From Hydra vulgaris (lineage: Eukaryota > Cnidaria > Hydrozoa > Anthoathecata > Hydridae): a stretch of DNA of 64,000 nt. The notes under the pieces were generated by a model. That model did not search any database. It was not told the origin of the DNA and was given only the letters and a program-made list of their open reading frames with translations. The stretch lies in contig NC_088931.1 of assembly GCF_038396675.1 (NCBI RefSeq), positions 75,000,001-75,064,000 of the forward strand, given 5' to 3'. Both the position numbers and the translations under genes were made by a program. Shown here piece by piece: positions 47,272-62,552 of the stretch (positions within the stretch are counted from its first letter, which is position 1; every line of letters starts with the position of its first letter).

Positions 47272-47293
47272 TATATAACATTAGTGGTTTAAT

Positions 47294-47325
47294 CAAGGAC
47301 GTAAAATAAGATGGACGTTCAACGC
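47294..47325 (+). repeat. P-type left terminal inverted repeat
   Basis: A 32-bp perfect match to the right end. It starts 23 bp after the hAT element. Confidence 0.95.
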
Positions 47326-48452
47326 TTTGTTAAAGATCAGAGGTACCGCCAAATAGCTAAAATCTATGCGTGTTACCGTCAATTTTCTAAATATAAGATA
47401 CAGACATTCCGATGTCTACCCGTCAAATTTGTTTCGCTATACTTCACTCGGTAAACCCATTATAATTATGTCTATACTGAAGCTTAAGGTTATAAAAGAC
47501 ACATAAGTTATTCAAAAATAATTCATAAGTTTAAAAAAAGTAGAGTTGAGTCATTTACTTTGCTTAATAAAAAGATACCTAAGGTTAAACTTTGACGTCT
47601 AAAACTAAGCTTTTGCACGAAGGCAATATATAGTTTACAAGAATAGATAGTATAAAGTGAAGCGAATTTTTTACGCTAAATTAAAATTACTATGATATAA
47701 TTTAAAGGACGAATAAGATATTTTCAGTGTTCTTTTCACCCCACTCTCTGAATATACTTCCCACTTTAGGGTTTAAATAAGGGAATATTTCAAATTTTTG
47801 TAGGAAATGTCGAACTTATTTGCCTCACTTTTTTTTTAAATAAATATGTATTTTTTTTTCCGCGGACGACCTTTTTATGAAGTTTCTTATTTTTGTTTCA
47901 TAAATCGCATTTTAATATTTATTAAGTTTAAAATTTAAAGGTATTTTAACTAAGAGCATCTTACAATTCGTATAAAAAATTATTAGTTTCAGAAGCTAGA
48001 AAGAAATATAAAGTATGCATCTTTAATTAGTTTTTTTAATAAAACATTTTTAAACAGTCAGTGTAAACTACTTTATTTAATAATAATGATAGTAAATAAA
48101 TAAAACTTGATAATAACAAATATAGTCATAAAATTAATAAGATTATAATCTTATTATTATTAACAATAATGCTATTGTTATTATAATAAGATAATCTTAT
48201 TATTATTAACAACAGTGTTGTTGTTGTTATGATAAGATCTTACTATTAATCAATATTATTAAGAATAATAAGATAATCTTATCAATTTTATTATGCAATT
48301 GTTATAAGGATATTGCTATCTTGTAGATTGTATCTTTAGTGTCAAATTTTATGTATTCTACAAATGATGCACAACTTTTTTTTTAACTTTTTATAGGTAT
48401 TATATCAAAAGAAGTATATGTACATATCTTTTATCTCATTACTGGATAAATA
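47326..48452. other. P element 5' region
   Basis: Contains the subterminal TATGCGTGTTAC at 47365 and AT-rich sequence, including TTATTATTAACAA repeats near 48150-48240. The promoter of the transposase should lie here, but no single TATA box stands out. Confidence 0.5.
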
Positions 48453-52883
<4,431 letters not shown>

Positions 52884-53701
52884 ATATTCTCTTAAGTTAT
52901 ATTAAAACATTTTCATCAGGCAGTGACTCGAGTTTAAATGTCAATTTAATAAATATAACATACAGATATCTTGACTTAATATTACTTTTTAAATAATCCC
53001 ATATATTCAGGGTATTATGAGTGTATTATCATTATCGTAGTATTCAGCTTAATTTTAAAAGTATTTTCTATATTTACATATCGTGACGTTAGAATAATAT
53101 AGTTTTATTTCTATTTTATAATGTTGAGAGAATTTAACTTCTAACTTTTATTTATTAAATTATTTTGCAGCATGAGGTCTTTTTTTTATGTTATTCATGT
53201 TTTATAATCAATAATTCCTGAAATTGTCTGTTTGGAATATTAATTCTTAATAAAGTTGGAATTAACTAAAAAAACAACCTTAAAAATTATATAAATAAGA
53301 TTAATATATTGAAATTTTGTAATTAATAATATAATAATTAAAAACCGATAGTAATAATTGAGAAAGCGTCTCTTGAATTTTTTTTGTTTGTTTTTTAATT
53401 TAAGAAAAATAATCCAATATTCAGCTTATTTCCCACAAAATCGATTTACGAGATTTTTTCACCGTTTTTTTCACCGATTTTTAGGCCTGAAATTGATAAA
53501 CATGGGGTGTTAATAAGCTTGGGACATGCGGGAAAATTTTTAGAAAATTAATAAACTTTTCATCATTAAATACACCTTCGTGTAGTAAGAGTACAATAAA
53601 TGAAAAAATTTACTATTAAAAAAATAATTACCTAATCAATGAAAAATATATCAAAGCAACGATAAAAACCAAAAAAAAATACTGTTGTCAGTTATTTTAA
53701 C
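52884..53701. other. P transposase 3' flank
   Basis: AATAAA candidates occur at 53249-53254 and about 53596. No other coding motif is seen. Confidence 0.5.
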
Positions 53702-53737
53702 CAAGGACGTAAAATAAGATCTTATTTTACATCCTTG
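53702..53737. mobile_element. 36-bp P-type excision footprint
   Basis: CAAGGACGTAAAATAAGA (the first 18 nt of the terminal repeat) is followed directly by TCTTATTTTACATCCTTG (its complement with one change). TTTTAAC flanks both sides (53695-53701, 53738-53744). The unit consists only of two transposon tips and a 7-bp target duplication. P-type excision makes cuts staggered by 17 nt and is known to leave such tip remnants. Confidence 0.85.
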
Positions 53738-54077
53738 TTTTAACATTTCAACATTATCATTCCAAGATGATTGTTACATACACTTCCATTTCACTCTTAA
53801 TATTTTAATACAACAAAATCTAGTTAATTTCCATCAAACTTTTAAATTTAATCCATCTATTTTTTAAAAAAGAATATTTAATGAGTTGCTCATTGTAGTG
53901 TGAACGAAAAATATTTTTGAAAAAGCAAACAAAAATAACTTAGTAGTGTTTATTTTTACCAATCCTTTGTTAACAAAAAACAAATATAAAGATATATAAA
54001 TATAAAGCTAAGCATAAGATGTTAAACAAACATAAGTAAGATGTTTATTCTATATATAATAATATACAAATTTCTAA

Positions 54078-59490
<5,413 letters not shown>

Positions 59491-59543
59491 AACTATTTCA
59501 ATTTCAGAATCTGTGATAATAGCTGATCGTTATAAAACTTTAT

Positions 59544-59730
59544 TGTTACGTGTATAAAATTCTTGTCATAATATTATCAAAGTTAATTGATGTAATTTAT
59601 TAGTCAAGTCATAAGCTATTTTTGTATATAATTACGCCCTCGAGAATTTTTGTTTCTGTATAAAAGTTGTAAATAGAATTTAATAAACAGAGTCGAAAAA
59701 TAAAAGTATAATAAAGTTGTCGTATTAACA
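59544..59730 (+). repeat. LTR of an inserted retroelement, 187 bp
   Basis: Starts TGTTACGTG and ends GTATTAACA, so the tips TGTTA/TAACA are inverted. A TATAAAAG box lies at 59659-59666 and AATAAA at 59682-59687, in promoter-then-polyadenylation order for a + strand LTR. The last 30 bp recur in reverse orientation at 59814-59849. Confidence 0.78.
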
Positions 59731-59849
59731 AGCTATTTCGGCCACACTACAACATCTCCAGATCCATCAAACTTTCCAATCATTTTCGCCATAGATGCCA
59801 TACTGCCGAAATAGCTTGTTAATACGACAACTTTATTATACTTTTATTT
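59699..59849. repeat. inverted repeat of LTR end plus leader, 59-bp loop
   Basis: The left arm (59699-59742) contains the LTR end and AGCTATTTCGGC. The right arm (59803-59849) is its complement. The loop, read on minus, is the start of gag: ATGGCATCTATGGCG encoding MASMAKMIGKFDGSGDVVV. Confidence 0.88.
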
Positions 59850-62110
59850 TTTTGAGAAGCAGGTGCAGATTCCTCGTTTGTTCCCACCGTTGGTGTTGCA
59901 TTGTACCAAAATACCGCTAATAAAGGCCTCGCAGCTGTTCGTTTTACTGTGCGGTGGTTACGCTCCACAATCCCATTTCCTGATGGTCTATATGCACATC
60001 TATACTTCTTTTTAACACACCATTTTTCACATATATTTGAAAATTCACTAGATTTAAACACCGCTCCATTATCCATTAACAGTTCTTGCGGCGGGCCATG
60101 CTCCCTAAATACGGATTCCAATTGACTTACTACATTTTTGGTATCTTCGCGAGGCAACTTTCTCCAAATTGCAAACCGACTTGGTCCACAGTCAATCATT
60201 GTTAAATATGGCGACCCTTTATAGTGAGTCACATCACAAGCAACTCGGTACCATGTGTCTGGTACATCTAGCACTCCATTTTCCCATTTTATTGGCGCTG
60301 GATCAATTGAATTACATTGACAACATTTGCGAACACATTCTTCGACATCTTTTCTTAATACGTGCGGAAGTCTTCGTTGCACTGTAAACATTGTCCGATT
60401 AACGCCAAAATGATGCTTTGAGTGACAATTACGAATTTCTTCAGCAATACTTACTCCACATAGCTCTTTAGTACTTCTTCGTGAAAGCTCATTTAACCAA
60501 GTCTTTGGAACTCTTGTCAACACGTCAGCTTTGTTTTTGGAGGACGGAACCCATTTTAACGTGATGTTTATATTATATTCTTTTATTAGGTCTTGCAATA
60601 GAGAAAGTCTTCTTTTAATAAGCATTTCTGATAATGCATTTGATCGAATCCTATGGCTTTCAGTCAGCATACTTTTTAGCCATCCATGAACTGTTACTGA
60701 ATCAGTGAACACCGACAAATTCTTTATATCCCACTTAGCAGCTAGGTTTATCCCACGCACCACAGCATCTAATTCAGCAATATTAATATGCATAACATCA
60801 TTTATACTTCGAAGCCAGGCTGCATCCTCAATTATTACGCCATCGTATTCTATAGCAACCCCTATTGCCATGCTGCTAGCATCACACCACAATGTTGCTC
60901 CATTTTGAATCCCTTTAGCATTCCATTTCCCTCTCACAGAATCACAAACTTCTAATCGACACAATATTTCGATTAACCATGACTGAGCTTGATCTCCGAT
61001 TAGATCATCCCAAGTATTTCTTTGACTATGACGTTTTATAAAACTGCAGGCAATTCTAAGCCACCCTCCAACAGGATAGTGACCTAATAAGTGTCCACAT
61101 ATTGAAAAAAGTTTCCGTCGTGTTACTTTTTCAGTTTTGATATTTTGTGACTTTGGAATGATGTTTCCACGTTTCCAACATAGCTCCTTTTTTTCATTTC
61201 TAAACAGTTGCAAACCCAACACTCGTGCAGTATCACATTGCACCGGCTCTTTTGTTACCAATCCATAACACGCTAAATGATTTACGACCTTTTCAACTGA
61301 TGTCTTTTCCAAATTGACAATTATGTCATCAATGTAGTGGTCTGTTGCTTCACTAATACCAGCATTAAGATTCAACACACTGCCTAAGACTGAAGACATT
61401 ATTTTTGGGGCAGAATTTAACCCAAAACCAAGACGTGTAAGATAGTATTTTTCTTCTTTGTAGACTACCTTCTGATGCTCCCACAAACTCGGATCAATAT
61501 GTATTTGCATATAGGCGCATCTAAGATCAAGCGTTGCAAATTTGTCACCAACAGTTCTCCATTTTCTAACTTTTTCATCACATGCATCACTTGAGGCATT
61601 ATGTGAATTAACATACTGATTCAATTCGCGAAAATCCAGAACAGGTCGTATCTTTCCTTTATTTTCCTGCTCAACAGCCATTAACGGGACAATCCCTATT
61701 GTACTTTTTTCTTCTTTGTTGCATGGTTTCAACCAGCCATTTTTTACCCATACGTCCATCTCGTCATTAAATTGATGTAACAACTGGGGTTTCACCTTGT
61801 ACTGCGCGACAGAATTTCTCAGTTGTGGTTGACCTTGTTTCCATTTATATTTAGCAGTCCACTTTGTACCATCAAAATAAGCATCAAAATCCTTGTCCTT
61901 TATACCAACAGCTTGTTTCTCTGCATGAATTGAAACAAAACCAAATTCAATTTTTCCATTGTACAAATGCACTCTTCCATAGCGATTAATGACATCCATA
62001 CCAATAATAGCATCAATACCGTTGACAACACTTTTCAGAATCATTACTGATGTTTTGAGCTTTTTTCCTTCAATTATCAATGTTACTGTAGCTTCTCCCT
62101 CCGTTTTCAC
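59819..62110 (-). CDS. LTR-retroelement pol (RT, RNase H, integrase), 763 codons, incomplete ends
   Basis: An open frame without gag. Residues 1-60 are the end of an aspartic protease (IDAIIGMDVINRYG; the catalytic triplet is missing). RT covers about 100-300, with RPVLDFRELNQYV, ATLDLRCAYMQIHI and the catalytic YIDD at 259-262. RNase H lies at about 405-540, with LWCDASSMAIGVAI, NIAELDAVVRG and FTDSVTVHGWL. Integrase carries the HHCC zinc domain (HSKHHFGVNR..CVRKCCQCN). The core has VACDVTHY, LLMDNGAVF and SGNGIVERNHRT, so D, D and E are all present. The C-terminus breaks off at ESAPASQK, joining an LTR end. Its missing C-terminal domain lies inverted at 62108-62371. The first Met is only the first ATG after the breakpoint. 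Confidence 0.92.
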   Translation of the reverse strand: MKTEGEATVTLIIEGKKLKTSVMILKSVVNGIDAIIGMDVINRYGRVHLYNGKIEFGFVSIHAEKQAVGIKDKDFDAYFDGTKWTAKYKWKQGQPQLRNSVAQYKVKPQLLHQFNDEMDVWVKNGWLKPCNKEEKSTIGIVPLMAVEQENKGKIRPVLDFRELNQYVNSHNASSDACDEKVRKWRTVGDKFATLDLRCAYMQIHIDPSLWEHQKVVYKEEKYYLTRLGFGLNSAPKIMSSVLGSVLNLNAGISEATDHYIDDIIVNLEKTSVEKVVNHLACYGLVTKEPVQCDTARVLGLQLFRNEKKELCWKRGNIIPKSQNIKTEKVTRRKLFSICGHLLGHYPVGGWLRIACSFIKRHSQRNTWDDLIGDQAQSWLIEILCRLEVCDSVRGKWNAKGIQNGATLWCDASSMAIGVAIEYDGVIIEDAAWLRSINDVMHINIAELDAVVRGINLAAKWDIKNLSVFTDSVTVHGWLKSMLTESHRIRSNALSEMLIKRRLSLLQDLIKEYNINITLKWVPSSKNKADVLTRVPKTWLNELSRRSTKELCGVSIAEEIRNCHSKHHFGVNRTMFTVQRRLPHVLRKDVEECVRKCCQCNSIDPAPIKWENGVLDVPDTWYRVACDVTHYKGSPYLTMIDCGPSRFAIWRKLPREDTKNVVSQLESVFREHGPPQELLMDNGAVFKSSEFSNICEKWCVKKKYRCAYRPSGNGIVERNHRTVKRTAARPLLAVFWYNATPTVGTNEESAPASQKNKSIIKLSY

Positions 62111-62371
62111 GAGAAAAACACTGAAACTCAGGAAAGTTCACGGCAAGTTATGAAAACTTATAGAATTGGAGAAAAAGTTTATGTTCGCCCCGCTGATGCA
62201 AAGTGCACTTCAGTTTGGAAAATTGGTACTGTAACTGACATACTCACAAACACAAATATTGAAATTGATGGTGTACCAAGACATGTGCGAGACGTGAGAA
62301 TAGCTCCTGCCTCATCTGTCATATTCATTTTATGTTTAACTGTTCAAAAAATATATTTTACGCAATCTTAA
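62108..62371 (+). pseudogene. integrase C-terminal domain, opposite strand to its pol
   Basis: Reads HEKNTETQESSRQVMKTYRI, then GEKVYVRPADAKCTSVWKIG and VTDILTNTNIEIDGVPRHVR. This is the terminal DNA-binding domain expected directly after the truncated integrase. It points away from the pol frame and agrees in orientation with the 59544 LTR. It marks the second breakpoint of the inversion (about 62107). Confidence 0.85.
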
Positions 62372-62513
62372 GATATTTTATTGGATAGTCGAGACCTACT
62401 TTTTTTGACGTCGAATCTAATAAAAATATTCCCACATTTTGCAATTCTCCCTATTGTTTTCCTATTGTTCTCCAAACAATTCCGTAACACGCATATCTTT
62501 TTTTTTAAACAAT
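62372..62513. other. P element right subterminal region
   Basis: Contains GTAACACGCATA at 62484-62495, the inverted partner of the left subterminal motif. Confidence 0.6.
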
Positions 62514-62545
62514 GCGTTGAACGTCCATCTTATTTTACGTCCTTG
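62514..62545 (-). repeat. P-type right terminal inverted repeat
   Basis: A 32-bp perfect partner of 47294-47325. Confidence 0.95.
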
Positions 62546-62552
62546 GTTTAAT

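Follow-up and report, generated by a model that had tools for sequence, protein, structure and literature searches.

In the available text of Chan et al. (2010; PMC2895639), Drosophila P{wa} breaks with 17-nt tails were joined through a terminal AT in 14 isolates among 68 junctions; blunt joins and insertions of templated, AT-rich sequence were also recovered from these breaks, and 29% of junctions showed 5-10 bp of microhomology with short remnants. The 17-nt stagger of the P transposase is likewise given in the accessible parts of two other articles (PMC7776569; PMC10983969). Scars of this kind are already known from Drosophila. Within the P superfamily, Galileo is described as making mostly 7-bp duplications, with the consensus GTATTAC and a palindromic target motif (PMC4168063, accessible part). 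Relevant to the transposase described here are also the N-terminal region of RAG1 and N-RAG-TP of Aplysia (PMC8355894; PMC4411706); the latter source, in its available portion, stated in 2015 that no other known transposable element encoded the RING finger or the Chapa domain, as it calls a truncated N-terminal portion of RAG1.

The window analyzed here, a stretch of 64,000 nucleotides from Hydra vulgaris (NC_088931.1, positions 75,000,001 to 75,064,000), contains a P-type element of 15252 bp at 47294-62545, delimited by tip matches, terminal repeats, and flanking duplications. The 7-bp target-site duplication GTTTAAT lies on both sides (47287-47293 and 62546-62552, plus strand). The terminal inverted repeats at 47294-47325 (plus strand) and 62514-62545 (minus strand) had no mismatches over the 32 nt tested; those of Galileo, according to the accessible part of PMC3688188, are unusually long. 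Exact 7-bp duplications flanked six of the seven end pairs that we tried as full-length elements; the seventh (L068/L063), which lacks a duplication, was rejected as a single element and kept in the count. Near the right end lies a pol-like ORF (59819-62110, minus strand) that has matches of RNase H-like and integrase type. On visual inspection, the C-terminal part of this ORF appears to lie on the opposite strand (about 62110-62320, plus strand), and a short inverted repeat near 59700-59850 suggests an inverted segment.

The element encodes a P-type transposase with a RAG1-like N-terminus. All coding pieces lie on the plus strand: an ORF for the RAG1-like zinc region (48453-48773), whose frame in the window copy differs from that of the next exon, is followed by exons at 48776-50273 (P-type RNase H N-terminal domain), 50471-50571 (bounds set by eye from splice signals), 51426-51587 (GTP-binding insertion domain), 51767-51949, 52203-52335, and 52579-52883, the last of which carries QDPLEEYFG. 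Joining the window exons at splice signals yielded a 793-aa product that matched the P-type RNase H N-terminal domain (PF21787, E = 2.1e-21) and the GTP-binding insertion domain (PF21788, E = 2.6e-14), together with a weak match to the RNase H C-terminal model below its cut-off (PF21789, E = 0.024). The sole solved chain matched at E ≤ 0.1 was the P element transposase (6p5a/6pe2, E = 3.4e-9). In the alignment with 6p5a, DTPHLIK stands opposite DVPHLIK and QDIVEHFFG opposite QDPLEEYFG, and we take these aligned motifs to hold the catalytic residues. The element combines the P-type RNase H core and GTP-binding insertion with terminal inverted repeats and a 7-bp duplication, target duplications in the P superfamily being 7 or 8 bp long.

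The N-terminal ORF of the window copy matched RAG1 both by profile (PF12560, E = 1.4e-9) and by solved chain (E = 1.5e-6), and a search of NCBIfam with this ORF gave nothing useful. Another copy (L104, at C5; 13-1863, minus strand) has a single open frame of 616 aa that spans the P-type RNase H domain as well as the RAG1-like region, and the N-terminus of this frame again matched RAG1 (PF12560, E = 1.4e-10; RAG1 chains, E = 1.1e-5). The RAG1 match is confined to the first ~130 aa of the transposase: this part resembles the N-terminal region of RAG1 itself, to which the likeness is drawn rather than to N-RAG-TP, but it is joined to a catalytic core that matched P-type models and not the RAG1/Transib core. 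An N-terminal THAP domain is usual in P and THAP9 transposases and is not treated here as the core definition of the P superfamily. No THAP match was found at E ≤ 1 in the window's two pieces or at E ≤ 0.1 in L104. Across the genome, we counted 51 RAG1_imp_bd matches. KolobokP, as presented in the accessible part of its description (PMC9587614), is unrelated.

Inside the element, at 53695-53744, an earlier note had described two 18-nt tips of the terminal repeat standing head to head between copies of TTTTAAC, and this description proved exact. The left target-site duplication (53695-53701, plus strand), which occurs as a single copy in the empty alleles L008, L024, and L025, is followed by a left tip remnant, CAAGGACGTAAAATAAGA (53702-53719, plus strand), identical to nt 1-18 of the terminal repeat, or to 19 nt if the common T at 53720 is included. 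The right tip remnant, TCTTATTTTACATCCTTG (53720-53737, minus strand), corresponds to the same 18 nt apart from a C>T change, the single mismatch between the tips, and borders the right TTTTAAC copy (53738-53744, plus strand), assigned by direct reading and copy comparison. The AT at 53719-53720 is common to both tips and would represent microhomology. When up to three mismatches were allowed, the tip 18-mer occurred at four places in the window, i.e., the element ends (47294 and 62528) and both tips, against a mean of 0.10 for shuffled versions, none of which reached four in 100 shuffles. The C>T change is present in seven of the eight filled copies and absent from L006; the scar was therefore probably perfect at birth, and the change looks like later damage. 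A 346-aa ORF that adjoins the footprint (54078-55118, minus strand) had no Pfam match at E ≤ 0.001.

We consider it very probable that 53695-53744 is the end-joined excision scar of a sister element released by a P-type staggered cut of about 19 nt. When 600 bp spanning the footprint served as a probe, the genome gave at least 67 matches (40 of 68 candidates scored), many of them short and limited to the palindrome or to a 67-bp segment that lies elsewhere; alleles were compared at 13 loci, i.e., 12 with matches of at least 230 bp and one fragmented locus. The palindrome was present at eight of these (the window copy, L002-L007, and L026), and three (L008, L024, and L025) read straight through a single TTTTAAC. 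The other two were uninformative, as L027 stops short of the site and L028 is without the stretch. The earlier note had reasoned that a palindrome shared by all copies, with no one-copy allele, would be a built-in motif; with eight filled and three empty loci among the 13, the one-copy alleles argue that it is not, and they support the note's proposal that a sister element inserted here and left. In an unrooted FastTree analysis of the flanks, the three empty copies grouped with L027 (support 0.646, short branches), which is consistent with a single gain of the scar but not strong proof of it.

Filled and empty alleles were found at three independent sites. Besides the window's site, a footprint in a many-copy repeat (L035) had 77 matches, and all six fetched paralogues read a single GTT(A/G)TTC; for a footprint common to L037 and L038 in another repeat, five of eight fetched paralogues (from 44 matches) carried one GTTTAAC-like 7-mer, and the other three held different sequence there, neither filled nor cleanly empty.

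The whole genome (911.5 Mb, 15 contigs) was searched for paired tips. Tip-gap-tip arrangements with gaps of 0-24 nt occurred at 25 places and those with gaps of 25-55 nt at nine, four of which overlap the first set, compared to none for the reversed pattern in either case. The 25 include five copies of the window's site and two places that duplicate each other. Single tips with at most one mismatch numbered at least 68 forward and at least 64 reverse (control: 2 and 0). Tip-tip palindromes with 7-bp repeats, for which the earlier note had proposed a genome search, recur at many unrelated places; the genome-wide control was the reversed pattern only, and the shuffled tips that the note had suggested served within the window only.

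Of 46 loci entered in our catalogue, five were removed: L013 for its 8-bp repeat, L026 as a decayed instance of the same site, L071 for inverted flanks, L077 for lack of a repeat, and L080 for damage to its tip. The remaining 41 rows formed 33 independent clusters. Entry was limited to repeats of 7 bp with no more than two mismatches, a rule that favors 7, and under this rule the flush repeat was exact in 25 of the 33, with one mismatch in four and two in four. Row L089 (33 bp, two mismatches) is doubtful. No footprint among the 33 had an exact flush repeat of 4, 5, 6, 8, 9, 10, 11, or 12 bp. When the repeat-length rule was lifted (36 rows, duplicates included), 27 were exact at 7 bp, one at 8 bp, and none at 6 or 9 bp; an 8-bp duplication as the norm was rejected, since L013 alone among the loci examined had an exact one. 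Left and right 7-mers taken from different footprints matched in 14 of 1056 pairs. The 7-bp length resembles that described for Galileo in the accessible part of PMC4168063; the pooled duplication here is approximately GTT(A/T)AAC, a target that is palindromic by construction because it was counted on both strands. Two further arrangements were observed. At L071 (~401), a 34-bp tip-tip junction has flanks that are inverted instead of direct over ~18 bp. L072, L075, and L088 (~401-520) belong to a repeat family with a ~110-bp tip-to-tip insert, which is AT-rich inside and lacks a clear 7-bp duplication; this insert is perhaps an old footprint that has since been amplified.

The tip-tip cores measured 31-80 bp and included microhomology, blunt, filler, and templated-repeat joins. 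The commonest core, 36 bp (9/33), would fit two 19-nt tails annealed by their terminal AT; the 31-bp class (n = 4) would fit pairing of this AT with an AT inside the other tail, and the 34-bp class (n = 6) one-base pairing. Tips are joined bluntly in the 38-bp junction and with a single extra base in the 39-bp one, junctions of 42-54 bp carry filler, and those of 58-80 bp hold repeated tip segments. In L036, L017, and L043, tip segments recur or the duplication is present a third time, a pattern resembling templated repair synthesis. These features parallel those reported for Drosophila P in the available text of PMC2895639, where a flanking duplication, tips joined by a terminal AT, blunt joins, small insertions, and AT-rich templated filler all occur; unlike the P{wa} junctions, the scars here are natural and genome-wide. 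The Drosophila class with long microhomology (29% in the same text) leaves short remnants and would escape the patterns used here. The 36-bp palindrome could instead be a tiny mobile element or built-in motif rather than a scar, since the insertion of a 36-bp element would likewise yield a 7-bp duplication and 36 bp is the most frequent length. We give this reading almost no credence: the three copies without the palindrome show one TTTTAAC, and the spread of core lengths, with filler, one-sided trimming, and templated repeats, looks like products of repair and unlike copies of one element.

Within the excision reading, the length of the retained tips bears on the stagger. With up to two mismatches tolerated, the longest tip was 19 nt in 30 of the 33 footprints, 18 nt in two, and 17 nt in one; 19-nt tips occupied 45 of 66 ends, and none of the 33 footprints had a tip of 20 nt or more (gaps up to 55 nt). 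A one-sided case, L082, has a whole 19-nt tip running into the remains of its duplication. As the search patterns need ~11-13 nt per tip and scars with shorter tips are invisible, it is the upper limit of tip length alone that is informative, for gaps up to 55 nt. This limit also bears on the proposal that interrupted gap repair after excision, and not direct end joining of tails, gave rise to the junctions as internal-deletion derivatives. L073 retains ~170 bp of right-end sequence (estimated by eye) next to a left tip of only 19 nt, L076 is an insert of 271 bp with a tip at each boundary and a different interior, and single full-length ends without a nearby partner exist in the genome, all as gap repair could produce. 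Deletion endpoints should scatter, however, and no catalogued end passes nt 19 even though the terminal repeat of full-length elements continues as GGACG. We regard gap repair as a very improbable source of the junctions in general, though it may lie behind the few long cases; random internal deletion was rejected for the short junctions on account of tips that stop at nt 19.

For junctions formed by end joining of tails, the tails themselves might be 17-18 nt, near the Drosophila length, with the T at nt 19 supplied by filler or microhomology. That T is ambiguous in the 36-, 34-, and 31-bp classes, and our tally of nt 19 left out 29 ends with an ambiguous join; L083 has C at this position at both ends, and an element end at L087 also carries C there. 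At the 34 ends (42 loci) that extend to nt 18 with an unambiguous join, nt 19 was T in 23, C in seven, and A in four, and none of the 23 ends with T continued into the element's G at nt 20. The T count exceeds a chosen background of 0.36 (p = 1.8e-4, a value to be read with the ends of one event not being independent), and two complete 19-nt tips are present in the 38-, 39-, 48-, and 53-bp junctions. Tails of 17-18 nt are unlikely, though less so than the alternatives above; given the 11 ends with C or A at nt 19, the stagger may yet be 18 nt. From the repair products, and by comparison with Drosophila P, we infer that the transposase leaves 3' tails of ~19 nt, or possibly 18, by a P-like staggered cut. 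The earlier note had proposed P-like cleavage with a 7-bp duplication for this family: the duplication stood, and the cleavage is made plausible by the stop at nt 19. The tips suggest a stagger of ~19 nt here instead of the 17 nt of Drosophila. Drosophila P, in the available texts, has an 8-bp duplication and 17-nt tails, compared to 7 bp and a probable 19 nt in Hydra.

Under the end-joining model, a related element that shared these tips would have entered TTTTAAC in an ancestral element, generating the 7-bp duplication, a step that the empty alleles support. Excision by a P-type transposase would have followed, with one strand cut at the boundary and the other ~19 nt inside, such that each flank would retain a ~19-nt 3' single-stranded tail corresponding to the element tip, as suggested by tips of at most 19 nt and by Drosophila P. 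The identical tails would pair via their terminal AT, with fill-in and ligation giving 19 + 19 - 2 = 36 bp. Multiplication of the scarred element afterwards would account for a scar common to at least eight copies, and the same process would have produced the at least 33 independent scars catalogued in the genome.

Both the observation in the earlier note and its interpretation are supported. In the literature searched, we found no description of a natural, genome-wide set of P scars among the titles and abstract openings of the listed matches. The listed matches, with most subscription journals outside the search, likewise held no description of a P family with a 19-nt stagger and a 7-bp duplication, nor, with Repbase outside it, of a P-type transposase with a RAG1 N-terminus. 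We are moderately confident that these fossil scars reveal a 19-nt stagger and 7-bp duplication for this P-type family and that a RAG1-type zinc module, standing where P elements carry a THAP domain, moved between different DDE transposase lineages. The long staggered cut has been described for the Drosophila enzyme, according to the parts of the sources available; natural footprints would add a second estimate of the stagger, from an animal lineage far from flies and without bench work. The same footprint ruler is applicable to other genomes with a P-type family, and the RAG1-like N-terminus bears on the origin of the non-core part of RAG1.
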